This document shows, piece after piece, positions 25,469-43,333 of a stretch of DNA of 64,000 bases. The notes under the pieces are model-generated. The model searched no databases. It worked only from the letters and a program-made list of their open reading frames with translations, and was not told the origin of the DNA. The stretch's first letter is position 1. Every line of letters begins with the position of its first letter. A program made the position numbers and the translations under genes. Source of the stretch: Planctomycetota bacterium (GTDB taxonomy: Bacteria > Planctomycetota > UBA1135 > UBA2386); NCBI GenBank assembly GCA_020849665.1, contig JADLFX010000011.1, positions 1 through 64,000 of the forward strand, written 5' to 3'.

Positions 25469-27088
25469 ATGGCTGAGCTGGAGCTGCCGCAGATCTCGTT
25501 CGCGCGCTATCTCGACCTGCTCAAGCGGCGGCGCTGGCAGGTCGTGCCGGTGAGCCTGCTGGGGCTGGTGATCGGCGCGGTCGTGGCGTTCTTCATCCCG
25601 CGCTACTACGTGGCGCGGACCACGGTGCAGTTCTACGGGCGCCTCGACGGCCAGGGACGCAGCGTCGGCGAGGATCCCCTCGCCCAGGCCGTGCAGAGCG
25701 CGGCGATCACCATCCGCGCACTGGTGCCCGAGGCCCTGACCAGGCTGGGCTGGCCCGAGGCCATGGTCGAGGACCCCAACGGCCGGCGGGCCTTCGCCGA
25801 GGAGGTGCGTGGCCGGCTGGAGGTGAACGATCTCGGCCCGCGCGAGCGGGGCCGCACCTCGACCAACCTCGAGATCGTGTACCGGGACACCAACGGCCCG
25901 CGATCCAAGGAGCTGGCCGACACGCTGCGCGACGTGTGGATCCGGCGCGAGAAGGAGCTGATCGAGCAGAGCCTGCGCCAGCAGATCGATCTCGTGAACC
26001 AGGCCATGGACACGGCGCGCAAGACCAAGGTCGCCGCCGAGAAGGCCGTGTTCACGTTCGAACGCGAGCACCAGATCAACCCCGAGGACTTCCTCGGCGA
26101 CCGCCAGGGAGAGATCAGCGCCCTGAGCGCCGAGATCCGCGAACTGGAGCGCAGCATCGCCACCTACGGCGGCGAGATCGACGGCATCGACGCGCAGCTC
26201 ACCGCGCTGCGCGAGCGCGAGCGCAGCGGCGCGGTGCCGAAGGAGATCGAGCAGGTCAGGACCATGGCGCCGGAGCTGCGCAAGGTCCACGAGGAGCTGC
26301 AGTTCCGCGTGGCCTACGCGCGCAGCGCGTTCGAGAGCGTGACCCCCGCGAACCAGCGCTTCGGGCAGTTCCAGCGCGCGGTGGAGGAGGCCGAGCGGCG
26401 CCTGAAGGAATTCGAACGCACGGTGGGGGGCAGCCCGGTCGAGCGGATCGCCAACCCGGAGTGGATCGGACTCCGCAACGAGATCCGGACCCTCGAGCTG
26501 CGGCGCGAGAGCCGCAGCGCGGACCTGGCCGCGGCGCGGCGCCTGCTGGACGAGGCGGAGAAGCGCCGCACGGCGAACGCTGTGATCTACCGCGACTACC
26601 GCAGCCTCTCCGAGCAGCGGCGCAGCGCCGAGGAGGAGGTGCGCAGGATCGACCGCCAGCTGGCGGAACTGGAGGCGCGCCAGCGCGAGGTGCTGGCCGT
26701 GAACACGTACGAGGTGCTCAGCTACGCGTGGGTGCCGCCACGCCCGACCGAGCCGAGCGCCTTCCTCCTGGCCATCGTCGGGAGCGTGCTGGGGCTGGCC
26801 GCCGCGATCGCGCTGATCCTGCTGCTCGACGTCCTGCGCACTTCGTTCAAGACCGTCGAGGACGTGGAGCGCGGCCTCGCCGTGCCGGTGCTGGGCGGCA
26901 TGAGCCACCTGGAGACCGAGGAGGCCCGGCGCGCAGGCGTGGTGCGGCGGCGGCGCATCTCGGTGGCCGCCGGGGCCTTCCTGGTGCTCGTGGTGTCGGT
27001 GGTCACGGTCTACTACGTGAAGCCCACCAGCCTGCCGGGCTTCGTGTGGAAGACCCTGGACCTGCTGCTCGGCCGCACCCAGGAGTAG
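25469..27088 (+). CDS. Wzz/GumC-type chain-length determinant and co-export protein
   Basis: 539 aa with a good GGAGG upstream. The N-terminal SFARYLDLLKRRRWQVVPVSLLGLVIGAVVAF is the Wzz start, with its first membrane helix at ~28-48. A long charged coiled-coil region (~150-420) follows with many ERER and REL heptads. A second helix near 425-447 and a third near 505-525 follow. There is no BY-kinase domain; the C-terminus stops after the membrane helices, and no separate kinase gene is nearby. It spans inner membrane and periplasm and sets polymer length or links to the Wza-like protein. Confidence 0.83.
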   Translation: MAELELPQISFARYLDLLKRRRWQVVPVSLLGLVIGAVVAFFIPRYYVARTTVQFYGRLDGQGRSVGEDPLAQAVQSAAITIRALVPEALTRLGWPEAMVEDPNGRRAFAEEVRGRLEVNDLGPRERGRTSTNLEIVYRDTNGPRSKELADTLRDVWIRREKELIEQSLRQQIDLVNQAMDTARKTKVAAEKAVFTFEREHQINPEDFLGDRQGEISALSAEIRELERSIATYGGEIDGIDAQLTALRERERSGAVPKEIEQVRTMAPELRKVHEELQFRVAYARSAFESVTPANQRFGQFQRAVEEAERRLKEFERTVGGSPVERIANPEWIGLRNEIRTLELRRESRSADLAAARRLLDEAEKRRTANAVIYRDYRSLSEQRRSAEEEVRRIDRQLAELEARQREVLAVNTYEVLSYAWVPPRPTEPSAFLLAIVGSVLGLAAAIALILLLDVLRTSFKTVEDVERGLAVPVLGGMSHLETEEARRAGVVRRRRISVAAGAFLVLVVSVVTVYYVKPTSLPGFVWKTLDLLLGRTQE

Positions 27089-27095
27089 GCGCGGC

Positions 27096-28457
27096 GTGCG
27101 CGACTTCTTGGTCTTCGCGGTGGTGATGCTGGGGCTGCCGTACGCCTACCGCCGTCCGTTCCTGGGCCTGCTGCTCTTCTCCTGGCTGGCGTACATGCGC
27201 CCGCAGGACCTGTGCTGGGGCTTCGCCCGCGACATGCGGTTCAGCTTCTACGTCGGCTTCACCATGATCTTCGGGTGGTGGGTGAACGAGGCCGGCCGCC
27301 GGCGCTTCACGCGCATGGACGTGCGCGCCTGGTGCATGGTGCTGCTGCTCGGGCTGATGACCCTGAGCCTGCTCCTGGCCGAGCGCCAGGACGCGTACGT
27401 GATCCAGTACTACATCGAGTACGTGAAGATCATCTTCGTGGCGCTGTTCACCATCGGACAGGTGGACTCGCGCCAGCGCCTGCGCTGGATGCTGTGGACG
27501 ATCTGCCTGAGCCTCGCCTTCTTCGGCGTGAAGGGCGGCGTGTTCGGGGTGCTCACGGGCGGTGCGCCGATCCTGCGCGGTCCGGGCGGCATGATCGAGG
27601 ACAACAACGACTTCGCGCTCGCGCTGGTGATGAACGTGCCGCTGCTCTTCTACCTGGCGCGCAGCGAACAGCGCGCCTGGCTGCGGCTCGCCGCCGACGT
27701 GGGCGTGGTCCTCACCCTGGTCACGGTGCTGCTCACCCACTCGCGCGGCGGGTTCCTGGCCGCGGGGTGCGCCCTGGTGCTGATGGCGTGGCGCGCCGGC
27801 AGGCTGCTGCCCGCGCTGGGCGGTCTCGCGCTCCTGGGCGCGCTCTTCCTGGCCTTCGCGCCGGCGAGCGTGAAGGAGCGCCTCGGCACGATCACCGCAG
27901 GCGAGCAGGAGTCCTCGATCGCCGCGCGCTTCAAGTCCTGGTCGATCGCGATGCACATGATCGAGGACAACCCGGTGCTGGGGGTGGGGCTGCGCAACTT
28001 CCAGGCCCACTGGCCCAAGTACTACCCGGAGGTCACCGGCCGCCCGCCGGGGTTCGCCTACGTGGCCCACAACTCCTACCTGCAGATCTGGGCGGAGGGC
28101 GGCACGATCGCCTTCACGGTCTATCTCGTGCTGCTGGGCTCGGTGTTCGCGGCGGCGGCGTGGCTGCGCCGCTACACGCGCAGGCGGGCCGACCTGGCCT
28201 GGGCGTTCGACTACGCCCGGCTCTTCGAGACCACCACGGTGGGGTTCATGGTCGGGGCCGTGTTCCTGAATCGCGGCCACTTCGACCTCCTGTACCACGT
28301 GATGGCCCTGGTCTCCGCCACCATGTTCGTGGTGCGGGGCGCACTGGCGCGCGAGCCGGCGCCGGCCGGCGCCGACGTGCGGCCCCCCCTGCGCCTGGGC
28401 CGGCGACCGGTCGTGGTCACCGCGTCGCGGCTGCCGCGCTGGGAGCGGGCGCGCTGA
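27096..28457 (+). CDS. Exosortase-associated O-antigen ligase/polymerase-like protein
   Basis: 453 aa from GTG 27096. It has about ten hydrophobic helices. The opening MRDFLVFAVVMLGLPYAYRRP with WLAYMRPQDLCWGFA is typical of the 'putative O-glycosylation ligase, exosortase A-associated' family (TIGR03097). THSRGGFLA and HNSYLQIWAEGG are the conserved periplasmic/ligase motifs with the usual Arg and His. It likely polymerises or transfers the polysaccharide on the periplasmic side. It shares one base with the next gene (TGATG). Confidence 0.88.
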   Translation: MRDFLVFAVVMLGLPYAYRRPFLGLLLFSWLAYMRPQDLCWGFARDMRFSFYVGFTMIFGWWVNEAGRRRFTRMDVRAWCMVLLLGLMTLSLLLAERQDAYVIQYYIEYVKIIFVALFTIGQVDSRQRLRWMLWTICLSLAFFGVKGGVFGVLTGGAPILRGPGGMIEDNNDFALALVMNVPLLFYLARSEQRAWLRLAADVGVVLTLVTVLLTHSRGGFLAAGCALVLMAWRAGRLLPALGGLALLGALFLAFAPASVKERLGTITAGEQESSIAARFKSWSIAMHMIEDNPVLGVGLRNFQAHWPKYYPEVTGRPPGFAYVAHNSYLQIWAEGGTIAFTVYLVLLGSVFAAAAWLRRYTRRRADLAWAFDYARLFETTTVGFMVGAVFLNRGHFDLLYHVMALVSATMFVVRGALAREPAPAGADVRPPLRLGRRPVVVTASRLPRWERAR

Positions 28458-30316
28458 TGTGCGGGATCGGCGGGATCTTCGCTACGCGACGCGACGTGCC
28501 GGTGGATTCCGGCGAACTCGCGGTCATGGCCCGGGCCCTGGCGCATCGCGGCCCGGACGGCCAGGGAGTCCACACCGGGCCCGGGTTCGGCCTCGCGCAT
28601 CGGCGCCTGGCCATCGTGGACCTCGCCCAGGGCGCCCAGCCGATGGACGACGGGACCGGGGCGGTGTGGGTCACGTTCAACGGCGAGATCTACAACCACC
28701 TGGAGCTGCGGGCCGAACTGGAGGCCGCCGGGCACCGCTTCCGCACCCGTTCGGACACCGAGGTCCTCGTGCACGGGTGGCGGGCCTGGGGCGAGGCCCT
28801 GCCGGAGCGGCTGCGGGGCATGTTCGCGTTCGCGCTGGTGGACACCGCCACGCACACGCTCTTCCTGGCCCGCGACCGCCTGGGCAAGAAGCCGCTGCAC
28901 TACCTGCAGCTCGGCGACCAGCTGCTCTTCGCCTCCGAGCTGAAGGGCCTGCTCGCCCTGCCGCGGGTGCCGCGGCGCGTGCGGCCGGAGGCGCTGGCCT
29001 GGTTCTACGCGCTGCGCTACGTGCCGGATCCGCACACGGCGTTCGCCGGCATCCACAAGCTGCCGCCGGCGCACAGCCTGGTGGTCCGGGACGGCAGGCT
29101 CACGCTGCGGCGCTACTGGGCGCTCTCGTTCGCGCACGAGGCCGGCGGCGCCCTGGCGGATCTCGAGACCCGCGCCCTGGAGCTGCTCGACGACGCCGTG
29201 CGGGTCCGCCTCATGGGCGAGGTGCCGCTCGGCGCGTTCCTGTCCGGCGGAGTGGACAGCTACGCGGTGGTCGAGAGCATGGCGCGCGCGACGCCCGGCA
29301 GGGTGGTGGCGTGCACGATCGGGTTCCCCGACCCCGCGCACGACGAACGCGCGGCGGCGCGGGCCGCCGCGGCGGCGTGCCGGGCGACCCTGCACGAGGC
29401 GGAGGTCGGTGCCGCGGACCTGCTCGACCAGGAGTGGTTCGCCAGCACGTTCGACGAGCCGTTCGCGGACGAGAGCGCGGTGCCGACCTACCACGTGAGC
29501 CGGCTGGCGCGGAGCCACGTGACCGTCGCGTTGTCCGGCGACGGGGGCGACGAGGCGTTCGCCGGCTACCGGCGCTACCGCTTCGACCGGATCGAGAACC
29601 GCGTGCGCGGGCTCCTGCCGCGCGCGCTCTGGTCGGTCCTGGGAAGCGTGTGGCCGAAGGCGGACTTCCTGCCCCGCTGGCTGCGCGGCAAGCGCACGCT
29701 GCAGAACCTGGCGCTGGACCCCGCCGAGGCGTACGCGCGCTCCGTGTCGGCGGCGCTCCCCGAGGAGGTGCTGCCGCTGCTGCGCCCGCTGGGGCTGCCC
29801 GCAGGATTCCAGCCGCTGCAGCCGGTGCTGGACGCCTACCGGGCCAGCGACGCGCGCGAGCCGCTGGGCCGGGCCGCGGCCGCAGACTTCGCCACCTACC
29901 TGCCCGGGGACATCCTGGCGAAGGTGGACCGTGCCTCGATGGCGGTGTCCCTGGAGGTGCGCTGCCCGCTCCTCGACCACCGGGTGGTCGAGTTCGCCGC
30001 CGCGTTGCCCGCGCGCCTCAAGCTGCTGGGCGGGGCCAGCAAGGGCTTCCTGCGCCACGCGCTGCGCGGCCGGCTGCCGGCCACGGCGCTGCGCCGGCGC
30101 AAGCAGGGCTTCTCGCCGCCGCTGCGGCGCTGGCTGGCCGGGCCGCTCGGCACCGCGCTGGAGGCCGCCCTGCGCGAGGGCCGGATCCGCGGGTACCTCG
30201 ATGTCGATCGGCTGGGCCGGCTCCTCGGCCGGCACCGCGCCGGCGTCGCGGACCACACGACGCTGCTCTGGGCCTCGCTGGTCCTCGAGCGTTTCCTGCG
30301 GCGGTGGCAGCCATGA
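28457..30316 (+). CDS. XrtA-associated amidotransferase (asparagine synthase-like)
   Basis: 619 aa. MCGIGGIF provides the N-terminal catalytic Cys of a class II glutamine amidotransferase. RGPDGQG, HRRLAIVDL and FNGEIYNH follow. The synthetase half has PLGAFLSGGVDSY (PP-loop), SGDGGDEAFAGY and KVDRASMAVSLEVRCPLLD. Length and neighbours match the exosortase A system-associated amidotransferase 1 group rather than house-keeping AsnB, so its target is probably a sugar or peptide of the surface polymer. This is inferred from context. Confidence 0.88.
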   Translation: MCGIGGIFATRRDVPVDSGELAVMARALAHRGPDGQGVHTGPGFGLAHRRLAIVDLAQGAQPMDDGTGAVWVTFNGEIYNHLELRAELEAAGHRFRTRSDTEVLVHGWRAWGEALPERLRGMFAFALVDTATHTLFLARDRLGKKPLHYLQLGDQLLFASELKGLLALPRVPRRVRPEALAWFYALRYVPDPHTAFAGIHKLPPAHSLVVRDGRLTLRRYWALSFAHEAGGALADLETRALELLDDAVRVRLMGEVPLGAFLSGGVDSYAVVESMARATPGRVVACTIGFPDPAHDERAAARAAAAACRATLHEAEVGAADLLDQEWFASTFDEPFADESAVPTYHVSRLARSHVTVALSGDGGDEAFAGYRRYRFDRIENRVRGLLPRALWSVLGSVWPKADFLPRWLRGKRTLQNLALDPAEAYARSVSAALPEEVLPLLRPLGLPAGFQPLQPVLDAYRASDAREPLGRAAAADFATYLPGDILAKVDRASMAVSLEVRCPLLDHRVVEFAAALPARLKLLGGASKGFLRHALRGRLPATALRRRKQGFSPPLRRWLAGPLGTALEAALREGRIRGYLDVDRLGRLLGRHRAGVADHTTLLWASLVLERFLRRWQP

Positions 30317-31473
30317 GCGCGCGGATCGTGACCTTCACGAACCTGTTCCCGTCCGCGGCATTCCCCAACCACGGGGTGTTCGTGCGGGATCGGATGCAGC
30401 GCGTCGTGGCGCGCCTCGGCGTCGAATGGACCGTGGTGTGTCCGGTGCCCGAGGCGCCGTGGCCGCTGCGGCGCTGGGTGTACCGCCGCCAGGCGGCCAT
30501 GCCCGCGGAGGAACGGGTCGGGGGCGTGCAGGTGCTGCATCCGCGCTACCGCCACCTGCCCGGGCTCGGGGTGTCGGGGCAGGCCCGCGCCATGGCGCGG
30601 GGTGCGGCGGCGGCGCTGGCGGCCCTCGTGCGGCGGGAGCGCTGCGTGGTGGATGCCCACTACGCGTATCCCGACGGCGTGGCCGCCGCGCAGCTGGCCG
30701 CGTCCCTCGGTGTGCCGTTCACGATCACCGCGCGCGGCACGGACGTGAACGTGCTCCTGCGCCGGCCCGCGCTGCAGCGCCAGATCCGCGCCTGCGCGCC
30801 TGGCGCAGGGGCGCTGTTCGCGGTGAGCGAGGCCCTGCGGCGGGCCTTCGTGGCCGTGGCCGGCGTGCCGGACGCCGCGGTGCGCCTGGCCCGCAACGGC
30901 GTGGACCTCGAGCGGTTCCGGCCCGGCGACCGCGCCGCGGCGCGCGTGGCGCTGGGCCTGCCGGACCGCGGCCCGCTGGTGCTCGGCGTCGGCCGGCTGG
31001 TCCGGGCCAAGGGCTTCCACGATCTGCTGGCCGCCCTGCGGGACCTGCCGGGCGCCACGCTGGTCCTGGTCGGCGAGGGACCCGAGCGGCACCGGCTCGA
31101 ACGCCGCGCTCCCGCCGGACGCCTCCTCTGCCTGGGGCCCTTGCCGCAGGCGCGGCTCTTGCTCGCCTATCAGGCCTGCGACGTGCTGGCCCTCCCCTCG
31201 CAGCGCGAGGGCTGGCCGAACGTCATCACCGAGGCCCTGGCCTGCGGCGTGCCGGTGGTGGCCTACGCGGCGGGCGGCATCCCGGAGATCCTCACCGATC
31301 CGCACAGCGGCACGGTCGTGCCGATCGGCGATCGCGCCGCGTTGGCCGGCGCGCTGCGGCGCTTCCTCGCGAGCCCGCCCACGCCAGGGTCGGTGCGCGC
31401 GTTTGCGACGCGCTTCGCCTGGGACGAGCCGGTGGAGCTGCTCTGCCGCACCTTCGGGGGACTCCTGGGGTGA
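30313..31473 (+). CDS. GT4-family glycosyltransferase
   Basis: 386 aa from ATG 30313 inside the stop of the previous gene. It is a GT-B fold enzyme: an N-terminal domain starting IVTFTNLFPSAAFPNHGVFV and DAHYAYPDG, a hinge at RNGVDLERFRPGD, then VLGVGRLVRAKGF and the nucleotide-sugar-binding LPSQREGWPNVITEALACGVPVVA with the retained EGxxxxxxE pair. It probably adds one sugar during repeat-unit assembly in the cytosol. Donor and acceptor cannot be told. Confidence 0.88.
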   Translation: MSARIVTFTNLFPSAAFPNHGVFVRDRMQRVVARLGVEWTVVCPVPEAPWPLRRWVYRRQAAMPAEERVGGVQVLHPRYRHLPGLGVSGQARAMARGAAAALAALVRRERCVVDAHYAYPDGVAAAQLAASLGVPFTITARGTDVNVLLRRPALQRQIRACAPGAGALFAVSEALRRAFVAVAGVPDAAVRLARNGVDLERFRPGDRAAARVALGLPDRGPLVLGVGRLVRAKGFHDLLAALRDLPGATLVLVGEGPERHRLERRAPAGRLLCLGPLPQARLLLAYQACDVLALPSQREGWPNVITEALACGVPVVAYAAGGIPEILTDPHSGTVVPIGDRAALAGALRRFLASPPTPGSVRAFATRFAWDEPVELLCRTFGGLLG

Positions 31474-32642
31474 GCGGCTATCGCATCCTCTACCACCACC
31501 GCATCCGGGCCGACGACGGTCAGGCCGTGCACGTACGCGAGCTGATCGGTGCGCTGCGCGCCGAGGGGCACGAGGTCCTGGAATGCGCGCTGGTGGCCAA
31601 GTCCGGCGCGGCCCAGGCCGGCGGCGGCGCGGCTGGCACGGGGTGGCTGCGCCACCTGCGCCTGCCGCGGCTGCTGACCGAGGCGCTGGAGATCGTGTAC
31701 GGGACGGCGGGCGCGCGGCGGGTGGTGGCCGCCGGACGGTCGTTCCGCCCGCACTTCGTCTACGAGCGCTGCGCGCTGCACTGCAGGGTGGGCCTGCTCG
31801 CCGCCCGCGCGCTCGGCGTGCCCCTGCTCCTGGAGGTGAACTCGCCGCACGTCGACGAGATGCGCGCGCTGGGCCTCCTGCGCTTCGCCGCGCGCGCGCG
31901 GGCCAGCGAGCGGATGGTGCTGGCCGGCGCCGACCGGGTCCTGGCCGTCACCCGGGTCCTGGCCGACCTGCTGGTGGCGCGCGGCGCCCGGGCCGAGACC
32001 GTGCGCGTGATTCCCAACGGTGCCGAGCCGGACCGCTACGGCCCCGAGGCCGGCGCGGCGTCCCGGACCCTGCGTGCGGGACTGCGCCTGCCGGGCGAGG
32101 CGTTCCTGCTAGGCTTCGTCGGCTACCTGCGGCCCTGGCACCGCCTCGATCTCGTGCTGGAGGCGATGCGCCGGCCCGGCCTCGAGGCCCTGCACCTGGT
32201 CCTGATCGGCGATGGTCCGGCGCTGCGGCCCACCCTGGCCGCGGCCGGGAGCGCAGGGCTCGCCGGTCGCGTGCATGCGCTGGGCCGCGTGCCGCCCGCC
32301 GACCTGCCGCCGCGGGTGGCCATGTGCGACGCGCTGCTGGTGCCGGCGATCAACGCGTACGCGTCGCCGCTGAAGCTCTTCGACGCCCTGGCGGCGGGCG
32401 TGGCGGCCGTGGCGCCGCGCCAGCCGAATCTCGAGGAGGTGTTGCGTGACGGCGAGGACGGGGTGCTCTTCCCGCCCGGCGACGCCGCGGGCCTGGCCGA
32501 ACGCCTGCGCTGGCTGGTGGACGACCGCACGCGCGCCGTGCGCCTGGGCGCGGCCGGGCGGGCCAGCCTGCTCGCGCACGAGTGGACCTGGCGGGGCAAC
32601 GCGCGCCGGGTCGTGCGGGCCTTCGAGGAGGTGGCGCAGTGA
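31470..32642 (+). CDS. GT4-family glycosyltransferase
   Basis: 390 aa from GTG 31470, 4-bp overlap. GT-B fold: YHHRIRADDGQAVHVRELIGAL at the start, LLLEVNSPHVDEM, RVIPNGAEPDRYGPE hinge, FVGYLRPWHRLDLVL, and VPAINAYASPLKLFDALAAGVAAVA in the donor site. The start motif is frequent in glycosyltransferases of exosortase-linked EPS clusters. It overlaps the exosortase gene by 4 bp. Confidence 0.86.
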   Translation: MSGYRILYHHRIRADDGQAVHVRELIGALRAEGHEVLECALVAKSGAAQAGGGAAGTGWLRHLRLPRLLTEALEIVYGTAGARRVVAAGRSFRPHFVYERCALHCRVGLLAARALGVPLLLEVNSPHVDEMRALGLLRFAARARASERMVLAGADRVLAVTRVLADLLVARGARAETVRVIPNGAEPDRYGPEAGAASRTLRAGLRLPGEAFLLGFVGYLRPWHRLDLVLEAMRRPGLEALHLVLIGDGPALRPTLAAAGSAGLAGRVHALGRVPPADLPPRVAMCDALLVPAINAYASPLKLFDALAAGVAAVAPRQPNLEEVLRDGEDGVLFPPGDAAGLAERLRWLVDDRTRAVRLGAAGRASLLAHEWTWRGNARRVVRAFEEVAQ

Positions 32643-33457
32643 GCCGCTTCGCCGTGTTCTTCCTGCCCCTGCTGATCGCGTATGCCGCGACCCTGCATTG
32701 GATGTGGGAGGTGTGGACCCTGCCCGAGTCGTACTACTCGCACGGTCCGCTCGTGCCGCTGGTGGCCGCCCTGGTCGTCTGGGCGCGGGCCGCGGCGTGG
32801 CGCGACCTGCCCGCGGCCACCGACCTGCGCGGCTTCCGGCTGCTGGCCCCGGCGCTTGCGCTGCATCTCGCTGCCGCCGCGCTCACCATCGACTCGCTCT
32901 CGGCCGCGAGCCTGGTCCTGGCCGTTCCCGGCGCGGCGTGGCTGGCCCTGGGCGCGGCGCGCGCGCGCGCCCTTGCGCCAGTGCTCGGCCTGACGGCGTT
33001 CTGCGTTCCCCTGCCGCTCTTCGTGAGCGGCCGGGTGGCGTTCACGCTCAAGGAGTGGGCCACCGGCGCTGCCCTGACGCTGGCCAACGGGACGGGCCTG
33101 GGTGCGACCCGCGCCGGCGCGTTCCTGCACGTGCCCGGCCAGGACGCCCCGCTCCTGGTGGCCGATGCCTGCGGCGGCCTGCGTTCGCTCGTGGCCCTGG
33201 CCACCCTCGGGTACTGCATCGCGTTCTTCCTGGGCGAGCAGCGCGGCGCACGGCGCTGGATCCTCCTGGCCCTGGCCCTGCCGATCGCGTTCGTGGTGAA
33301 CGTCGTGCGCATCGTGGCGCTGTGCTGGCTGGCGCGCCTGCACTCGGTGGAGTTCGCGGCCGGCAACGGCCACGACCTCGTCAACGCCCTGGCCTGGATC
33401 GTGGCGTTGGTGCTCCTGGTGCTCTGCGACCGCCTGCTGTCGCGGAGGCGGGCATGA
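32639..33457 (+). CDS. xrtA: Exosortase (XrtA-like transpeptidase)
   Basis: 272 aa from GTG 32639, mostly hydrophobic with about eight helices. SYYSHGPLVPLVAALVVW is the N-terminal exosortase signature. The catalytic triad is present: Cys178 in ADACGGLRS, Arg224 in NVVRIVALC, His245 in NGHDLVN. Exosortases cut C-terminal PEP-CTERM-like sorting signals and attach the protein to another molecule. No protein with such a tail is encoded in the window, so substrates are elsewhere. epsI follows in a 4-bp overlap, as in the XrtA group. Confidence 0.92.
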   Translation: MSRFAVFFLPLLIAYAATLHWMWEVWTLPESYYSHGPLVPLVAALVVWARAAAWRDLPAATDLRGFRLLAPALALHLAAAALTIDSLSAASLVLAVPGAAWLALGAARARALAPVLGLTAFCVPLPLFVSGRVAFTLKEWATGAALTLANGTGLGATRAGAFLHVPGQDAPLLVADACGGLRSLVALATLGYCIAFFLGEQRGARRWILLALALPIAFVVNVVRIVALCWLARLHSVEFAAGNGHDLVNALAWIVALVLLVLCDRLLSRRRA

Positions 33458-34089
33458 GGGCCGGCATCGGACGCCGCGGGGTGCTCGCCGGCGCGCTCCT
33501 GTGGACGCTGGCTCCGGCCCTGCTCTGGCTCAGCCTGCACCGCCCGTTCGCGCCGAGCCAGGGGCGTGCCGCCGCGCTGCCCGCGCGCCTGGGCGGGTTC
33601 ACCCTGGTGGACGACTACGCGCTGACCCCGCGCCACCTCGAACTGCTGGGCACCGCGGATGCCGTGTGGCGGACCTACCGGGACGGGCGCGGGCGCGAGA
33701 TCGTGGTCGTGCTCGTGCACCACGGCGCCAACTGGAAGAGCGTGCATCCGCCGCACCTGTGCATCGAGGGCAGCAACATGACCATCCGCAGCGATGGCCG
33801 CGCGGCGCTGCCGGGCGGCGGCGAGGCCGGCCGGATCCTGGCCTGGTCGCACGACCAGCAGCGTCTGGCGGTGAACCTCTACGCGTACGGCGCCCGCGGC
33901 CTGGTCACGCCGAGCTACGCGCGCTTCGTGCTGCACCATGCGCCGCGCGCGCTGTTCCGCGCCGCCACCGCCGGCTTCCTGATCCGCGTGGCGGCCTGGG
34001 CCGACGGCGAGGACGCCGCCGCTGGCGAAGCGCTCTGCGCGGAGTTCCTGGCCCTCGCGCTGCCGGCGGCCACCGAGGTGCTGCCGTGA
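33454..34089 (+). CDS. epsI: EpsI family exosortase-associated protein
   Basis: 211 aa. One N-terminal membrane anchor (GVLAGALLWTLAPALLWLSL) leads to a periplasmic domain with LPARLGGFTLVDDYAL, HHGANWKSVHPPHLCIEGSNM and SHDQQRLAVNLYAYG. The HPPxxCIEG motif is the hallmark of EpsI (DUF3485). The family is always near exosortases and is sometimes fused to them; its biochemical role is unsettled. It overlaps both neighbours by 4 bp. Confidence 0.9.
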   Translation: MRAGIGRRGVLAGALLWTLAPALLWLSLHRPFAPSQGRAAALPARLGGFTLVDDYALTPRHLELLGTADAVWRTYRDGRGREIVVVLVHHGANWKSVHPPHLCIEGSNMTIRSDGRAALPGGGEAGRILAWSHDQQRLAVNLYAYGARGLVTPSYARFVLHHAPRALFRAATAGFLIRVAAWADGEDAAAGEALCAEFLALALPAATEVLP

Positions 34090-34964
34090 AGCACGCGCTC
34101 TCGGTCGACGTCGAGGACTGGTTCCAGGTGCTCAACATGCGCGACGCCGTGGCGCGCGAGCGGTGGCCGGATCTGCCGCTGCGCTGCGTCGACGCGACCC
34201 GCCGTCTGCTGGACGTGCTGGCGCGGCACGAGGCCAGGGCCACGTTCTTCTTCCTGGGTTGGATCGCCGAGCGAGCGCCGGAGCTGGTGGCCGACGTGGC
34301 CCGTGCCGGGCACGAGATCGGCTCGCACGGCTACGACCACAGGGTGCTCGGCGAGCTGGGACCCGAGGGCTTCGCGACCGACCTGGAGCGCACCGAGTCG
34401 ATCCTGCGCGGGATCACCGGCAGTCGTCCGGAGGTGTTCCGCGCGTGCACGTGGTCGATCACCGGCCGCACGCTCTGGGCCCTGCCCGTCCTGGCCGGGC
34501 GCGGCTACCGCATCGACAGCTCGGTGTTCCCGGTGCTGCACCCCGAGTACGGCATCCGCGCGGCGCCGGCCGTGCCGTACCGGATCACGACTCCGTCGGG
34601 GACGCTGGCCGAGTTCCCGCCGCTCACGCTGCGCGTGCTCGGCCGCAGGCTGGCGGTGGGGGGCGGCGGCTACCTGCGCCTCTTCCCCGTGCGCCTCCTG
34701 GAGGCCGGCCTCCTGCAGATGGAGCGCGCCGGCTGGCCCGGCTGCGTCTACCTGCATCCCTGGGAGGTCGATCCGCAGCAGCCGCGGCAGCGGCTCGGGT
34801 TCCTGCGCGGCTTCCGCCACTACGTGAACTTGCACCGCACCCTGCCCAAGCTGGAGGTCCTGCTGCGCCGCCACGCCTTCACGACCCTGTCGGAGGCCCT
34901 GGCTCAGAGCCCGAGCTGGACCGCGAAGTGCGCCGAGTTCTCCTGGAACGGGCTCTCGGGATAG
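34086..34964 (+). CDS. Polysaccharide deacetylase, exosortase-associated
   Basis: 292 aa from GTG 34086. NodB homology domain: HALSVDVEDWFQV with the DxxDW start typical of the XrtA-associated deacetylases (TIGR03006), ATFFFLGWIAER, HEIGSHGYDHR with metal-binding His residues, RACTWSITGRT and YLHPWEVDPQQPRQ. It likely N- or O-deacetylates the surface polysaccharide. The last 61 bp overlap the 3' end of the opposite-strand TPR gene. Similarity to the family ends near TTLSEALA, so the last ~18 residues may be an extension. Confidence 0.87.
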   Translation: MKHALSVDVEDWFQVLNMRDAVARERWPDLPLRCVDATRRLLDVLARHEARATFFFLGWIAERAPELVADVARAGHEIGSHGYDHRVLGELGPEGFATDLERTESILRGITGSRPEVFRACTWSITGRTLWALPVLAGRGYRIDSSVFPVLHPEYGIRAAPAVPYRITTPSGTLAEFPPLTLRVLGRRLAVGGGGYLRLFPVRLLEAGLLQMERAGWPGCVYLHPWEVDPQQPRQRLGFLRGFRHYVNLHRTLPKLEVLLRRHAFTTLSEALAQSPSWTAKCAEFSWNGLSG

Positions 34965-37900
34965 CCGGCGGCCAGCGCGGCGAAGAGCTCGCGCGCGCGC
35001 GCCTTGGCCTCGGGCGTGGGCAGGGGCAGGTTGGCCAGCGCGCGGAAGTAGAGATGGCTGCCGTCGGCGCGGGGCTCCGTACCGGCGAGCAGTTCCTCCG
35101 CCAGGGCGTAGCGGGCCCCGCGCAGGGCCAGCAGGCCGCGGGCGTAGCGCACGGCGGGAAGGTCGGCCTGTGCGGGCGCCAGGGCGCGTGCCAGGGCGTC
35201 CTCGTCGGAAGGCAGCGAGAGTCCTGACTCCGCCCCGATCCGCGCCACTTCGGTGAGCAGGGCCGGGTCCGGCAGGTACCCCGCGACGGCGCGCAGCTCG
35301 CGCAGCGCGCGCGGCGTCTGGCCGTCCTGGTCCAGCAGGCGCGCGCGCAGGATCCAGAGCCCTACCAGCGACGGGTCGCGCGCCAGGGTCGCGTGCAGGC
35401 GTGCCAGGACCGGGGCGCGACCCTCGCGGCGCGCCAGCCGTTCGAGGCTCTGCACCGCGGTCACGGAGTCCGGATCCTTGCCGGCGGCGAAGAGGTCGAG
35501 GTGGGCGCGCAGGAGCGCGATCTCGCGGTTGCGCGCCGCGACGGCCGCGGCGTCGTTCGGACGGCGGAGGCCGCTCGCGGCCGGCGTGGCGAGGTCCACG
35601 ATCAGGTGCACGAGGGATCCGTACGCGCCGTACTGCGTGCGCGATGCCTCCGCGCGCTCCAGCAGGCGCTGGCGCGTGGCGTCGTCGGGGGTGCGCGCGA
35701 GGATCGCCCGGGCCAGGCGCGTGTACTCGGCGTAGAAGGCGCTGCGCCCCGCCTCGGGGACCTTGGCCTCCAGGAAGGCGAGCAGCTGGCGCGCGGCCTC
35801 GACCTTGCCGGCGAGGATCAGCGTCTCGACTTCCTGCACGCCCGCACGGCTGGCCTCGGGGGAGATCACCCAGAGGTTGCCCAGGAGCTGCACCGCGCTG
35901 TCCACGTCCCCCTGGCCGACCAGGATCATCTCCGCCACGCCGCGGGTGGCCACCGCCACCATGCGTGGCGTGGCCAGCTTGCCGCTCTCCTGCACGATGC
36001 GATGCAGCTCGTGGACCAGGTAGGGATCGGCCAGACGGGCCGGATCGCTGCGCTCCAGGATGCGCAGCATCTCGTCGTAGGCGGCCACGTAGCCCGGCTG
36101 CAGGAGCAGCACGCCGGTGAGGGTCTCGAGTGCGGGGATGCGCTCGTTGGCGGCGGCGAGGGCGCGGGCCAGCAGGAACCGCGAGGTGGCCTGCGGTGCC
36201 ATGCGCTCGTCCAGCGCGCGTGCCAGGGCCACGGCCCGCGGCGCCAGGCCGGCGATCGCCGGCAGGGTGAGCACGTCGAGGAGCAGTTCCGGCTCGCGCG
36301 TGGCGAGGACGCGGATCTCCTCGTGCAGGCCGCTGCCCTCCGTACCCGGCGCGAGGAGCGCGCGCAGGGCCAGCGCCGCCACGTCGGTCGGCGCGTCGCG
36401 CAGGTGCGCCTCGAGGACGGGCTGGGCCAGCGCCCCCAGGCGCAGCCGTGCCGCGACCGCGGCGCCGGCGAAGTCGGTCACCTTCACGCCGCGGAACACC
36501 TCGCGGGCCTCCTCGATGCGATTGCCCAGGGCGAGCAGCGCGGCCAGCGGCAGGGCCGCGGCCCGCCCGTCGGCGAACGTGCACGCGGCGGTGAGGTGGC
36601 GCTCCGCCGCGGCGTCGCGCCCCGCCGCGAGGGCGAGGGTGCCCGCCAGGAGGAAGACGCGGCCGTTGCGGAACGGCGCGGCCACCGGGCCATCCAGGGC
36701 CGGCTCCAGCACCCGATAGGCCGCCTCGGGCTGGCGGCGTTCGGCGAGGATCTCGGCGAGGTCCACGAGCCGGGCCGGGCGATCGCGCAGGAGTTCGCGC
36801 GCGGCGATCGCGGCGACGGCCACCGGTTCCGGCGCACCGCCCTCGGCCAGGAGCGCGGCATAGCGCAGCGCGGCTTCGCCCGCGCTGGTCAGGTCCTCGG
36901 GGAACACCACGGGGATCTGCTGCAGCAGCGCGAGCGCGGCCTCGCGCGCGCCGGACCGGGCCAGCACGTCGGCCACGCGCAGCAGTCCCACGGCCTCGGC
37001 AGGCTTGCGGGCCAGGAGGTTCGCGCCCAGGAGCTGCGCCGGTCCCAGCTCGCCGCGCGCGAGCAGCGCCTCCAGCATGCGGCGGGCGATCCAGGGGTCG
37101 AAGCCGCCCTGGAGGAGCAGGTCGAGGGTGAGGTCGTCCTCGCTCTGGCCCGTGGCGCGGCGCGCGGCGCGCAGCAGGGGCAGGGCCTCCGCATCGCCGG
37201 GATGGAACTGCAGCAGGGTCTCGAGCGCGCGGGCCGCCTCGTCGTGGGCCGCCATGCGCGTGGCCGCGCGCGCCTGCAGGAGGCGCGGCCAGCGCGCCCA
37301 GTTGAAGAGCCGCGCGGCGCGGCGCGCGCACCCAAGGGCGATCCAGGCATGGCCGCGTTCGAGCGCGAGTTCGCCGGTGGCGAGCAGCAGCACGTCGTCG
37401 CTGACGTCCTCGGGCGTGTCGCGGCCCAGCGTGAGGCACTGCGCCAGGAGCGCCTCGGCTCCCTGTCCCGACTGGGCCGCGGCCTTCTCGCTGGCCTCCG
37501 CGCGCACCCGGAGTGCCGCCTCGTCCTGCCCTGCGAGCTGCAGGCCGCGGCTGGCGTCCATCTTGGCCGGCCCGAAGTGGCCGAGGGCGACCTGCTGCCG
37601 GGCGCGATACAGGAACGCCTCCGGCCGCGCCGGGCGGACCTTGATCCACAGGGCGAAGTGCTCGTCCAACCGTGCCTGCGGCGCGCCACTCGCCTCGAGG
37701 GCACGCAGGCGCCGGTCCATCGCCCAGTGGAAGGCGTCGATCGGCCCGCGCGGCGGAGCCTGCACGCTGGCGTCCTGCACGTACCACCAGAGATGGTCGG
37801 CGACCTGCGCCGGGTGGCCCGCCAGGTCCTGGTCGAGGGCGGCCATCGCCTGCACCTCCGGCATGAGGTCCAGCATGCGCTTGCCCTGGATGTTCCACGC

Positions 37901-38962
37901 CGCGGCGACCAGCCTGGCCAGCTGCGCGGCGTCCTTGCGGCGCCACAGCACCTCGGCCTGGCCGAGGAGCATCCGGCGGGCCTCCGGCAGGAGCCGGCCC
38001 TCGCGGGCGAGGTCGACCAGGCGGTCGACCGGCGCGACCCGCTGGACCAGCTCCAGCAGCGCGTCTTCGCGCCCTTGATCCAGGTGCAAGGCGCCCAGAT
38101 CCAGCGCGGCGAGGGTGCGCCACGAGTGGTCGAAGCGCCGCAGGTAGATCTCGGCCAGCGCCTGGAGGTCGTCGAAGCGGCGGCCCTGGCGCAGGGCGAA
38201 CGCCAGTCCGCTGTAGGCCGCCACCGGCTGGCCGGGGAGTTCCAGGGTGCGGCGGAAGTGTGCCTGCGCCTTCGCGGTCCACGTGCGGATGGCGTCGATC
38301 TCCGCGTCGTAGCGCCCGGTGACCGCGTCCTCGGGACGGTTCTGGTAGAGGATCTCCTGGAAGCGCTGGCGCCCGCGCAGCGCCAGCGGATCGTCGGCGG
38401 CGCGGTAGAGCACCGGCAGCAGCGCCTCCAACACGTCGCGGTAGACCTCCGCGGCCAGCTTCGCCCTCAGCTCCTGCACCAGCTTCGCGATGCGCTCCTG
38501 GTAGACGACCTGCGCCGCCTCGCCCGCCAGCTCCGTGGCGCGGCCGTGATCCGGGTGCTTGTCGAGGAAGCCCAGCGCCTGCCGGTAGGCCTCCTCTGCC
38601 TTCCCGCTCTGCACCAGGAGCGTGTAGCGCTCGAGGGCGAGGCCCGGTTCGTCGGGGGCGTGGGACTCGACCAGGCGGTTGAGGTCGGCGAGCGCGAGTG
38701 TCTTGTTGTCGAGCGCGAGGTGGGCGCGGTACCGCACCTCCAGGATCTGGCGCCGGAGATCGTTGTGACCCGCCGGGCCCAGGTCGCGCTCGGCGGTGTC
38801 GAGGATGCGCACCGCTTCGCTGTAGCGACCCGTGGCGAACGCCTGCTGGGCGTTCTGCAGGGCGGTCTTGGGGCCGGAGAAGCCCAGGAGCGCGTAGCCC
38901 AGCGTCAGGACCAGCCCCAGGCACACGAAGCCGAAGAAGATCAGCAGCGTCCGGCGCAACAT
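34904..38962 (-). CDS. Large membrane-anchored TPR protein (PrsT-like by context)
   Basis: 1352 aa. A single N-terminal anchor (MLRRTLLIFFGFVCLGLVLTLGYALL) has no lipobox, and the rest is helical repeats of TPR type across the whole length, for example NAQQAFATGRYSEAVRILD near residue 37. No enzyme motif is seen. In proteobacterial exosortase loci a long TPR lipoprotein (PrsT) accompanies PrsK/PrsR; this gene is downstream of a kinase-like and an activator gene in the same order, though it is not a lipoprotein. It probably scaffolds the export or sorting complex in the periplasm. Confidence 0.8.
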   Translation of the reverse strand: MLRRTLLIFFGFVCLGLVLTLGYALLGFSGPKTALQNAQQAFATGRYSEAVRILDTAERDLGPAGHNDLRRQILEVRYRAHLALDNKTLALADLNRLVESHAPDEPGLALERYTLLVQSGKAEEAYRQALGFLDKHPDHGRATELAGEAAQVVYQERIAKLVQELRAKLAAEVYRDVLEALLPVLYRAADDPLALRGRQRFQEILYQNRPEDAVTGRYDAEIDAIRTWTAKAQAHFRRTLELPGQPVAAYSGLAFALRQGRRFDDLQALAEIYLRRFDHSWRTLAALDLGALHLDQGREDALLELVQRVAPVDRLVDLAREGRLLPEARRMLLGQAEVLWRRKDAAQLARLVAAAWNIQGKRMLDLMPEVQAMAALDQDLAGHPAQVADHLWWYVQDASVQAPPRGPIDAFHWAMDRRLRALEASGAPQARLDEHFALWIKVRPARPEAFLYRARQQVALGHFGPAKMDASRGLQLAGQDEAALRVRAEASEKAAAQSGQGAEALLAQCLTLGRDTPEDVSDDVLLLATGELALERGHAWIALGCARRAARLFNWARWPRLLQARAATRMAAHDEAARALETLLQFHPGDAEALPLLRAARRATGQSEDDLTLDLLLQGGFDPWIARRMLEALLARGELGPAQLLGANLLARKPAEAVGLLRVADVLARSGAREAALALLQQIPVVFPEDLTSAGEAALRYAALLAEGGAPEPVAVAAIAARELLRDRPARLVDLAEILAERRQPEAAYRVLEPALDGPVAAPFRNGRVFLLAGTLALAAGRDAAAERHLTAACTFADGRAAALPLAALLALGNRIEEAREVFRGVKVTDFAGAAVAARLRLGALAQPVLEAHLRDAPTDVAALALRALLAPGTEGSGLHEEIRVLATREPELLLDVLTLPAIAGLAPRAVALARALDERMAPQATSRFLLARALAAANERIPALETLTGVLLLQPGYVAAYDEMLRILERSDPARLADPYLVHELHRIVQESGKLATPRMVAVATRGVAEMILVGQGDVDSAVQLLGNLWVISPEASRAGVQEVETLILAGKVEAARQLLAFLEAKVPEAGRSAFYAEYTRLARAILARTPDDATRQRLLERAEASRTQYGAYGSLVHLIVDLATPAASGLRRPNDAAAVAARNREIALLRAHLDLFAAGKDPDSVTAVQSLERLARREGRAPVLARLHATLARDPSLVGLWILRARLLDQDGQTPRALRELRAVAGYLPDPALLTEVARIGAESGLSLPSDEDALARALAPAQADLPAVRYARGLLALRGARYALAEELLAGTEPRADGSHLYFRALANLPLPTPEAKARARELFAALAAGYPESPFQENSAHFAVQLGL

Positions 38963-39060: not shown

Positions 39061-40431
39061 TCACGAGAGGCCGTACCTGCGCATCTTGTGGAAGAGCGTG
39101 CTCCGGTTGATGCCGAGGCTCTCCGCGGTGGCGAGGCGGTTGCCGCCGTGGTGCTCCAGCGCGCGCTGGAGCAGCGCCTTCTCGGCCACTTCCAGGGCGG
39201 CGCGCAGGGGCAGGAGGTGGGCGTCGTGCGGCAGACCCGGTTCCGTGCCGTGTGCGCCGGGGCGCCGCGTCAGCTCCTCGGGCAGGTCCGCCGGAGTGAT
39301 CACGTCGCCCTCCGCCAGGACGACGGCGCGCTCCATCACGTTCTCGAGTTGGCGCACGTTCCCCGGCCACTCCGCCTGTTCGAGGATCCGCAACGCGTCC
39401 GGGGCGATGCCGCGCAGGGTCTTCTGGTTCTCGTGGGCGAAGCGTTGCAGGAAGCGCTCGGCCAGCACGGGGACGTCGGAGCGGCGTTCGCGCAGCGGCG
39501 GCACGTGCAGGTTGACGACGTGGATCCGGTAGTAGAGGTCGGCGCGGAACGTGCCGGCCTGCACCGCCTCCGCCAGATCGGAGTTGGTGGCCAGGATCAC
39601 CCGCACGTCGACCGGGATGGGCCGCGAGTCGCCCACGCGTTCCAGCACGCGATCCTGCAGCACGCGCAGCAGTTTCACCTGGAAGCCGGGCGAAGACGTG
39701 CCGATCTCGTCCAGGAAGATCGTGCCGCCGTGCGCGGCCTCGAACTTGCCGGCGCGATCCTTGACGGCGCCGGTGAACGCGCCGCGCACGTGGCCGAAGA
39801 GCTCCGACTCGAGGAGGCTCTCGGGCAGCGCCCCGCAGTTCACCTCGACGAAGGGCCCCTTGCCGCGCGGCGAGAGGCTGTGGATCGCGCGCGCCAGCAG
39901 GGTCTTGCCGGTGCCGGACTCGCCGGTGATCAGCACCGTGCTGCGGCTGCCGGCGACCGCGCGTGCGGTCTTGAAGAGCGCGGTCATCTTCGCGTCGCCG
40001 CCGACCAGGTTGAAGAGGCGCAGGCGGTCGTCGAGCGCCGCACGCAGGTCCTGGTTCTCGCGCAGGAGCCTGGCCTTGTCGAGCGCGCGCTCGATCGCCA
40101 GCGACACCTCCTCGGCGGAGAGCGGCTTGCTGAGGAAGTCGTCGGCGCCCTCGCGCATCGCCGCCACGGCGTCCTCGACCGTGCCGAACGCCGCCAGCAG
40201 GATGAAGGCCTGGTCGGCGTGCAGCCGGTGTGCCTCGCGCAGCAACTGGAGGCCGTCCATCCCGGGGAGCTGCAGCTCGGCCAGGACCAGGTCCACGTCC
40301 TCGTCGGTGAGGGTGCGGAGCGCCGCGGCCCCGTCCTCGGCGAGGACCGGATCGTGGCCGCGCCGCCGCAGGTGCTCGAGCAGGTCCTGCTGGGTGGCAG
40401 GATCGGGGTCGGCGATGAGGATTCTGGCCAT
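39061..40431 (-). CDS. Sigma-54-dependent activator with degenerate receiver domain (PrsR-like)
   Basis: 456 aa, NtrC-type. The receiver (~1-120) keeps the acidic pocket (DPD) and Lys103 in FLSKPL. The phospho-acceptor position is Glu52 (VLAELQLPGMDG; GAG codon read on the strand) and the conserved Thr/Ser is Ala80. The AAA+ domain is intact: GESGTGKT, the sigma-54 contact loop GAFTGAVKDRAGKFE, GGTIFLDEIG, and FRADLYYRI. A Fis-type helix-turn-helix ends the protein (NRLATAESLGINRSTLFHKM). It should activate sigma-54 promoters, perhaps without phosphorylation. It is preceded by the kinase-like gene (130-bp gap) and followed by the TPR gene (98 bp). Confidence 0.9.
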   Translation of the reverse strand: MARILIADPDPATQQDLLEHLRRRGHDPVLAEDGAAALRTLTDEDVDLVLAELQLPGMDGLQLLREAHRLHADQAFILLAAFGTVEDAVAAMREGADDFLSKPLSAEEVSLAIERALDKARLLRENQDLRAALDDRLRLFNLVGGDAKMTALFKTARAVAGSRSTVLITGESGTGKTLLARAIHSLSPRGKGPFVEVNCGALPESLLESELFGHVRGAFTGAVKDRAGKFEAAHGGTIFLDEIGTSSPGFQVKLLRVLQDRVLERVGDSRPIPVDVRVILATNSDLAEAVQAGTFRADLYYRIHVVNLHVPPLRERRSDVPVLAERFLQRFAHENQKTLRGIAPDALRILEQAEWPGNVRQLENVMERAVVLAEGDVITPADLPEELTRRPGAHGTEPGLPHDAHLLPLRAALEVAEKALLQRALEHHGGNRLATAESLGINRSTLFHKMRRYGLS

Positions 40432-40561: not shown

Positions 40562-41614
40562 TCAGGACGCCACGGGCAGGGCGATCTCCAGGAGCACGGT
40601 GCGGTCGGCGCGGCGGCGGGCCAGCGCCTCGCCGCCATGCGCGTGGACGATGGTCTGCACGAGGAGCAGGCCCAGCCCGAGGCTGGTGTTGCGCAGGACG
40701 CGGCCGAGCCTGTGGGGTTCGAAGGTCGGTGGCAGCTGCCAGTCGGCGATGGCCGGCGCGAGCAGTTCGAGGTGCAGGATCACGCGATCGCCCTCGACCC
40801 TGGCGGTGAGGCCGCGCAGCGGTTCCTGGCGGGCGATCTCGATCGCGCAGCGCAGCAGGTGCTCGAGGGCGGCACCCAGCAGCTCGGGATCGCCGCGCAG
40901 CGCCGCGTCGGTGGCGGTGGGGTCGAGGAAGAGGGCGACCTCGCAGCCCACCCGCGCGCGCACCGTGCGCGTCGCCTCCGTGAGCAGGGCGGCGAGGCCG
41001 AGGCGCTGGCCCTGACCCAGCGCGCACACGGCACGGGTGAACGTGCGCACCTTCTCCATCGCGGCGTGGATGCGCTGCAGGCTCGAGTCCATGGCGCGCA
41101 GGCGGCCCTGCATGTCCGTGACCTTGCCTTCCCCGCCGCCCTGCTGGATCAGCTGCAGGTGTCCGGCCACGAAGAGCAGCGGGTTGTTCACCTCGTCGGA
41201 GATCGCGCGGGCGAACTCGACCAGGACCTCCATCGCCTCGGCGGCGAGGGGATGCGTGACCAGACCCAGCGCCTCGGCGACGTCCTCCGGGGCGAACGGC
41301 TGCAGCAGCAGCGCGGCGCCCAGTTGGCGTGCCATGGGCTTGAGCACCGCCTCGCGCTCGCGCGCCACGACCAGCACCACGCTGAGTGCCGGCTGCAGGC
41401 TGCGCAGGAGGCGCAGGGCGCCGATCTCCGCCTCGCCGGGCTCGCCCTGCGCGTGGATCAGGACGCGCGGTTGGAAGTGCAGGATCGCCTCGCCGTCCGC
41501 GAACAGGTCCGCGAACGCCCGGACCAGCGGGCGGCTGGGCAGCGAGTGCAGCGCCGTGAGGAGCTGACCCGGCTCGCCGGACACCATGGCGATGCGAGGC
41601 TGTCCGACGTTCAT
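40562..41614 (-). CDS. Histidine-kinase-like protein lacking catalytic residues (PrsK-like position)
   Basis: 350 aa from ATG 41614. The track start at 41863 adds 83 Arg-rich residues from non-coding sequence. The N-terminal ~120 residues look like a receiver-type alpha/beta domain without its phospho-Asp pattern. A HisKA-like helix pair follows: VEFARAISDEVNNPLLFVAGH has Asp140 where the phosphorylated His belongs. In the ATPase-like region the N-box is HLLRCAIEIA (Cys for Asn) and no DxGxG loop is found, though GLGLLLVQTIVHAHGG matches the late G2 region. It is soluble. It probably senses or binds without phosphotransfer. Confidence 0.8.
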   Translation of the reverse strand: MNVGQPRIAMVSGEPGQLLTALHSLPSRPLVRAFADLFADGEAILHFQPRVLIHAQGEPGEAEIGALRLLRSLQPALSVVLVVAREREAVLKPMARQLGAALLLQPFAPEDVAEALGLVTHPLAAEAMEVLVEFARAISDEVNNPLLFVAGHLQLIQQGGGEGKVTDMQGRLRAMDSSLQRIHAAMEKVRTFTRAVCALGQGQRLGLAALLTEATRTVRARVGCEVALFLDPTATDAALRGDPELLGAALEHLLRCAIEIARQEPLRGLTARVEGDRVILHLELLAPAIADWQLPPTFEPHRLGRVLRNTSLGLGLLLVQTIVHAHGGEALARRRADRTVLLEIALPVAS

Positions 41615-42298: not shown

Positions 42299-43333
42299 GT
42301 GCCAGACGTGAATCCGGACGCGAGCGGCGCGCCTGCCACGGATCCGGCGCGACGTAATCCGGTCGATCCCGGTCCGGCCGCCGCGCTGCACCTCAGCGTC
42401 GTGGTGCCGCTGTTCAACGAGGAGCGCAACGTCCCCGTGCTGCACGAGGCCCTGACCCACGCGCTGCGCGGCATCGGCTGCACCTACGAGATCGTGGTGG
42501 TCGACGACGGCTCCAGCGACGGCACGCCGCAGCTGCTGCGCGCCCTGGCGCAGGACGATCCGCACCTGCGCGTGATCCAGTTCCGGCGCAACTACGGGCA
42601 GACCGCGGCGATGTCGGCCGGCTTCGACCACGCGCGCGGCGAGTACGTCGTGTCGATGGACGGCGACCTGCAGAACGACCCTGCGGACATCCCGCGGCTG
42701 CTCGCGCTGCTGGAGGAGGGCTACGACATCGTGTGCGGATGGCGCCGGCACCGGAAGGACGCGTGGCTGTCGCGCCTCCTGCCCTCCAAGCTGGCCAACT
42801 TCCTGATCCGCCGTGCCACGCGCGTGCCGATCCACGACACCGGGTGCTCGCTGAAGGCGTATCGGGCCTGGGTGGTGCGCAGCCTCGACCTGTACTCCGA
42901 CATGCACCGCTTCATCGCCGCGCTCGCCGCGGGCCTCGGCGCGCGCGTCGCGGAGATCCCGGTACGCCATCATCCGCGCCGCTATGGCCGGTCCAAGTAC
43001 GGGCTCGGCCGGATCTTCCGGGTCGTGGCCGACCTGTTGACGATCAAGATGCTGATCCAGTTCTCGGCTCACCCGATCCGCTGGTTCACGCTCCTGGCGC
43101 TGCCCCTGCTGCTGGCCTCCCCCGCGCTCCTGGTGATCGGCACGTTCCGCTTCGACGCCGGGGCCATCGAGCTGGCCAGCCGCTTCGACACCTACTACAT
43201 GACCGCCGCCGCGGTGACGACGATGGTGGCGGTGAACGTCTTCCTGCTGGGTTTCCTGGCCGAGCTGCAGATCCGTGCCTCGCGCTTCTTCGCGCGCCGG
43301 ATCTCGGTGGCCGCCAAGGAGGCCGCACAGTGA
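42299..43333 (+). CDS. GT2-family glycosyltransferase (DPM1/ArnC-like)
   Basis: 344 aa from GTG 42299. A standard GT-A domain opens with LSVVVPLFNEERNVPVL, then VVVDDGSSDGT, RRNYGQTAAMSAGF and SMDGDLQNDP with the metal-binding DGD at residues 121-123. GSLKAYR-type region GCSLKAYR and RYGRSKYG are typical for enzymes using polyprenyl phosphate. Two C-terminal membrane helices complete it. It probably moves a sugar to a lipid carrier. It overlaps the fused gene by 4 bp; the next protein begins with a degenerate copy of this domain. Confidence 0.9.
   Translation: MPDVNPDASGAPATDPARRNPVDPGPAAALHLSVVVPLFNEERNVPVLHEALTHALRGIGCTYEIVVVDDGSSDGTPQLLRALAQDDPHLRVIQFRRNYGQTAAMSAGFDHARGEYVVSMDGDLQNDPADIPRLLALLEEGYDIVCGWRRHRKDAWLSRLLPSKLANFLIRRATRVPIHDTGCSLKAYRAWVVRSLDLYSDMHRFIAALAAGLGARVAEIPVRHHPRRYGRSKYGLGRIFRVVADLLTIKMLIQFSAHPIRWFTLLALPLLLASPALLVIGTFRFDAGAIELASRFDTYYMTAAAVTTMVAVNVFLLGFLAELQIRASRFFARRISVAAKEAAQ

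Follow-up and report, generated by a model that had tools for sequence, protein, structure and literature searches.

The window, that is, the first 64,000 nucleotides of contig JADLFX010000011.1 from a Planctomycetota bacterium, harbors on its minus strand two adjoining genes whose products are built like a histidine kinase and a sigma-54-dependent response regulator. The first, P0001 (40562..41614), encodes a pseudo-histidine kinase of 350 residues comprising a receiver-like (Rec-like) domain (residues 1-120), a DHp domain (122-197) and a CA/HATPase-like domain (201-350). The second, P0002 (39061..40431), encodes a sigma-54 activator of 456 residues with a degenerate receiver, an AAA+ domain and a Fis-type helix-turn-helix (HTH). 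Together they are a conserved pseudo-kinase/pseudo-receiver module located beside an exosortase/polysaccharide cluster.

Fold and lost catalytic residues of P0001

The P0001 frame starts with ATG, and its guanine-cytosine content per codon position (0.81/0.46/0.94) is typical of coding sequence here. The AlphaFold2 model (mean predicted local distance difference test score of 85.6) comprises a (βα)5 fold at residues 7-120, two long helices (122-158 and 165-197) and an ATPase-like sandwich domain, with the lid region 300-305 unresolved. Pfam HisKA and HATPase_c match P0001 with 24.9 and 17.8 bits, both under their curated cut-offs. Pfam Response_reg did not match the N-terminal domain (41255..41614, minus strand), which is recognized as receiver-like from the AlphaFold2 model only. 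A Foldseek search of the PDB with this model returned the Rec-DHp-CA kinase LvrB as top match, followed by HK853 and DivL. Against LvrB, global template modeling scores are only about 0.35; a difference in domain orientation would lead one to expect such low values. From the model and the fold search, P0001 has the Rec-DHp-CA architecture of Rec-controlled kinases of the LvrB type; with the residues described below, it is a pseudo-histidine kinase, defined as a kinase fold without catalytic residues.

The column of the HisKA phospho-acceptor His is occupied by Asp140 (codon GAC, 41195..41197, minus strand), which lies within AISDEVNNPL; the equivalent box in active kinases of this group is AHExNNPL. 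The CA-like domain (40565..41014, minus strand) has lost both the N-box Asn, replaced by Cys256 (LLRCAIEIA), and the DxGxG loop, whose columns hold Leu284, Ala286 and Ala288; a residual GLGL is found at residues 313-316. P0001 therefore lacks each of the residues that mark an active HisKA kinase. An earlier reading of this DNA, made from the sequence only, had placed an Asp at the phospho-His position and claimed the loss of the N-box Asn and DxGxG, and all of these assignments were confirmed.

We collected 34 orthologues of P0001 from one uncultured planctomycete family and its sister family; the genomes of these relatives are Planctomycetota and all metagenome-assembled. Orthologues with about 31-41% identity occur in nearly all other genomes of this family in the first sample (contig ends truncate a few of them), and orthologues were also found in five genomes of the sister family. 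All 34 carry Asp at the His column (32 aligned full-length and two truncated by contigs), and all have lost the N-box and DxGxG, while Asn144 (His+4) is nearly invariant. In an alignment of 25 sequences with 21-38% identity to P0001, the Asp140 column is one of ten invariant columns. The Asp at the His column characterizes the whole family and is no local accident. In a quick tree calculated without the His/Asp column, one branch splits all Asp-bearing proteins from all His-bearing kinases; its Shimodaira-Hasegawa-like approximate likelihood ratio support of 86 is not strong.

More eroded relatives are found in another family, f8 (L105, L110, L063, L106, L112, L113); they have a long low-complexity insert, an invariant ADLAD motif and no recognisable NNPL box. 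Their homology to P0001 is supported (hhalign E 1.6e-11); the helix with the Asp140 site aligned unreliably, and f8 was left out of the Asp count.

The degenerate receiver of P0002

P0002 is an NtrC-type sigma-54 activator by its matches to Sigma54_activat (231.9 bits) and HTH_8 (47.5 bits) and by the presence of ELFGHVRGAFTGA; its AAA+ domain keeps intact Walker A (GESGTGKT) and GAFTGA motifs. The phospho-Asp column of its receiver holds Glu52 (codon GAG, 40276..40278, minus strand). The second acidic position is Pro9 and the Thr/Ser position is Ala80, with Lys102 retained. A pseudo-receiver has been defined as a receiver missing one or more of the residues DD1, DD2, D, T and K (PMC12632262), and P0002 is without DD2 (Pro9), D (Glu52) and T (Ala80).

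We compared 50 orthologous receivers, including P0002, of which 30 are from the same family. Glu at the phospho-Asp column is sporadic (7/50, and 5/30 within the family), the others carrying Asp (43/50 and 25/30). The second acidic residue, a direct Mg ligand, is Pro, Ser or Ala in 30/30 family receivers. The sequence-only reading of a defective receiver holds for the broken phosphate site, whereas Glu has not become fixed at the phospho-Asp column, and the more general defect of these receivers is the loss of the second Mg-binding acidic residue. The five-residue site is complete in two orthologues only (G027 and G033), the remaining 48 being pseudo-receivers. In all 50 receivers the phospho-Asp column holds either Asp or Glu and the Lys column either Lys or Arg, so a remnant of the site still seems to be under constraint. 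A survey of relatives for co-loss, suggested beforehand, thus reveals that loss is common on both sides (Asp in 34/34 P0001 orthologues, 48/50 receivers incomplete).

Judging from these residue columns, the P0001/P0002 pair of this genome is very probably incapable of classical His-Asp phosphotransfer, as had been proposed for both partners. According to published rates, the His is missing from 0.9% of HisKA domains and the Asp from 2.0% of receivers (PMC12632262). HisKA has 41 matches in this assembly, P0001 among them, and the best 30 of these 41 loci all have an intact H-box with His; the active site is likewise intact in 11/11 paralogous sigma-54 receivers examined. P0001 and P0002, which adjoin each other, thus stand apart from the other kinases and receivers examined in this genome.

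Gene neighborhood and intact relatives

Downstream of P0002, a conserved neighbor of the activator encodes a TPR-repeat protein of 1352 residues (34904..38962, minus strand). Divergent from P0001 is a GT2 glycosyltransferase gene (42299..43333, plus strand), with a second GT2 gene just downstream; two divergent GT2 genes adjoin the pseudo-kinase gene in 25/25 loci checked. The exosortase/polysaccharide cluster (25469..34089, plus strand) includes a chain-length determinant-like protein, a PEP_O_lig_1 ligase (exosortase-A-associated), a GT4 glycosyltransferase and an EpsI-domain protein. At L028, L029, L037 and L042 a repeated TGTCACC-N4-(T/C)(T/C)GC-like string precedes the pseudo-kinase gene by about 90 bp; it resembles a sigma-54 site in which GG has become GT.

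The sequence-only reading described a co-encoded pair in a PrsK-PrsR-PrsT-like order. The gene order is as described, but the family models do not support the names. Nothing in the genome scores over the cut-off of the PrsK model TIGR02916 (300 bits), so that no true PrsK was found elsewhere, and P0001 is not among the matches listed. P0002 scores 408.7 bits with the PrsR model TIGR02915 (cut-off 502.6 bits) and 467.9 bits with the AtoC model, which exceeds the PrsR score and is still under its own cut-off. The TPR protein does not match the PrsT model TIGR02917, or any NCBIfam family up to E = 1. Co-encoding also stands in part: the pseudo-kinase, activator and TPR genes are contiguous in 10 of the 22 well-sampled family genomes and apart in the others. 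In the split genomes the pseudo-kinase gene stays with the glycosyltransferases while the activator and TPR genes are elsewhere, several of them on long contigs. Because genomes of the sister family (f6) are mostly contiguous for the kinase-like gene and the activator, the split looks derived and the linkage ancestral. Split loci (L030, L031, L036, L037 and others) belong to a subclade in which both parts are kept though separated.

An intact kinase was found beside this activator in a single genome, G027, from another family of the same order. There, a short intact kinase (AHELNNPL, NLLRNA, DDGPGI) lies directly upstream of an activator whose receiver is fully intact. At this locus (L060:10339-12396) a degenerate Rec-like protein, the intact short kinase and the intact sigma-54 regulator are encoded in a row, a layout that is possibly an intermediate of kinase loss. 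No f1 or f6 genome examined has an intact kinase at the pseudo-kinase locus or beside the activator, and a hidden intact kinase beside the activator was sought in the split genomes and not found. Rec-HisKA-HATPase proteins from other planctomycete classes keep the His and mostly the ATP site, and often directly follow a second kinase. From these few genomes, the ancestor may have been a two-kinase arrangement whose active kinase was later lost. A recurrent two-kinase layout, with a His-bearing Rec-HisKA-HATPase kinase after a second intact kinase and before a receiver protein, was seen at L203, L204 and L205 (G160, G227, G498).

Proposed control by binding and competing explanations

Across 22 genomes, the P0001 Rec-like domain and the P0002 receiver diverge in parallel (partial r 0.57, p < 0.001) once four other proteins or domains, including the glycosyltransferases, the TPR protein and the AAA+ domain, are controlled for. 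The analysis comprised about 44 pair tests and measures correlated divergence, which is distinct from binding. The corresponding value for the P0001 DHp domain and the P0002 receiver is -0.03. In genomes with adjoining genes, the correlation between the two Rec domains is 0.55 (p 0.001). This pattern hints at a Rec-Rec contact instead of the classical DHp-receiver contact.

The best explanation is that P0001 controls P0002 by binding, to which we give about an even chance. The pair would then descend from a Rec-controlled histidine kinase and an NtrC-type partner, conserved but working without phosphorylation. P0001 retains the Rec-DHp-CA fold, with Asp in place of the phospho-His and its usable ATP site gone, and P0002 retains its sigma-54 AAA+ motifs and HTH, with the receiver Mg site lost and Glu at the phospho-Asp column. 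The Rec-like domain of P0001 most likely contacts the P0002 receiver; this contact would gate the receiver dimer, which in turn would control assembly of the AAA+ hexamer. The output would be expression of the surface polysaccharide/exosortase genes. In favor of this view are the loss of the His, N-box and DxGxG in all P0001 orthologues, the receiver site that is complete in 2/50 orthologues as against 11/11 paralogues, the intact receiver that accompanies the intact kinase in G027, the parallel divergence of the two Rec domains, and the AAA+ motifs kept in P0002.

Several observations weigh against control by binding. The pseudo-kinase gene lies apart from the activator in at least 12 family genomes, and the Rec-Rec correlation is weak where the genes are apart (0.19, p 0.2); correlated divergence is moreover indirect evidence, drawn from 22 genomes. 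Most orthologous receivers still carry Asp, Ser/Thr and Lys, and G033 combines a pseudo-kinase with an intact receiver site. Finally, a sigma-54 promoter signal was sought in the spacer between the pseudo-kinase and glycosyltransferase genes and not found, 26 loci showing no consistent excess.

The activator might instead act alone, its unphosphorylated receiver being fixed active or permanently permissive (here through Glu52 as phosphomimetic) and expression setting its level, while the pseudo-kinase serves others such as the adjoining glycosyltransferases. The constant association of the pseudo-kinase gene with its GT2 pair, from which the activator has moved off in the split genomes, fits this view, and a Glu at the phospho-Asp column can be phosphomimetic in many regulators (PMC12632262). 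We nevertheless regard it as a minority possibility, given that few orthologues have the Glu, that contiguity in f6 makes the kinase-activator linkage look ancestral, and that the Rec-like and receiver domains diverge in step. It is also unlikely that the activator still receives phosphate, from another kinase or from acetyl phosphate, with P0001 acting as a residual phosphatase or adaptor via the conserved Asn at His+4. The Asp kept in 43/50 receivers and the near-invariant Asn144 would suit such a role, as would the finding that HisKA phosphatase activity does not need the His (PMC12632262), but nearly all receivers are without the direct Mg ligand and P0001 has lost its ATP/ADP site. This explanation is further weakened because the Glu lineages (G000, G003, G008, G013, G021), which have no substrate to offer, keep the same P0001 box (DE(V/I)NNPL or DAINNPL).

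Information could also flow in reverse, with P0001 reading another receiver, as DivL reads DivK (PMC4211667, PMC5361649), or its own Rec-like domain and modulating a different, intact kinase. The degenerate kinase-like gene directly upstream of the intact kinase in G027 and the Rec-HisKA-HATPase proteins that follow a second intact kinase in other classes are in line with this, but the f1 and f6 genomes examined offer no such kinase at the locus or beside the activator, which makes reverse flow quite improbable. The chance of a sequencing error or a decaying pseudogene is negligible. The data are from metagenome-assembled genomes and P0001 lies on a long branch, but error and decay of P0001 are both contradicted by its open frame and codon bias and by 34 orthologues that share its substitutions. 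Sequencing error at Asp140, which had been named as a possible refutation, is excluded because all orthologues carry Asp there.

Returning to control of P0002 by P0001 through binding, we tentatively suggest, as a less probable extension, a fully phosphorylation-free "two-component" system that several planctomycete families might have inherited as one unit. A regulated heterodimer of the Rec-like domain and the pseudo-receiver might gate the sigma-54 AAA+ activator, and the invariant Asp at the former His might belong to a structural or binding switch. According to PMC12632262, the way in which pseudo-receivers are switched is not known, and the intact G027 locus in the same order provides a comparison for how a two-component pair could signal without phosphate. 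This natural system would tie phosphate-free signaling to surface polysaccharide control in planctomycetes.

Comparison with known systems

Pseudo-kinases and pseudo-receivers are known separately, whereas here both are co-inherited at one locus; the literature searched (open-licence papers only) yielded no earlier report of such a matched pair. The architecture of P0001 is shared with LvrB, a Rec-controlled histidine kinase from Leptospira (8vc9; PMC13269768), whose Rec domains dimerize via 4-5 / 4-5-5 surfaces, the same type as in NtrC-family receivers (PMC13269768). LvrB has a phosphorylatable Rec and a His and autophosphorylates, whereas P0001 has lost the His, N-box and DxGxG. DivL carries a Tyr in place of the His and operates alongside active kinases in its network. 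It keeps the kinase fold and acts by binding a response regulator (4q20; PMC4211667), and it is among the fold matches of P0001; P0001 differs from DivL in having Asp instead of the His and in lying beside a degenerate receiver. The proteobacterial PrsK/PrsR/PrsT system of PEP-CTERM/EpsH loci shows the same order of kinase, sigma-54 regulator and TPR protein near an exosortase/exopolysaccharide cluster (PMC1569441, PMC9850573), but PrsK has been described as a histidine kinase that spans the membrane, and P0001 differs in having a soluble Rec-like domain and none of the catalytic residues. Finally, pseudo-receivers such as WhiI with BldM, and CmrT, make heterodimer control a known possibility (PMC12632262); unlike these, the pseudo-receiver of P0002 has an NtrC-type output and is co-inherited with a pseudo-kinase.
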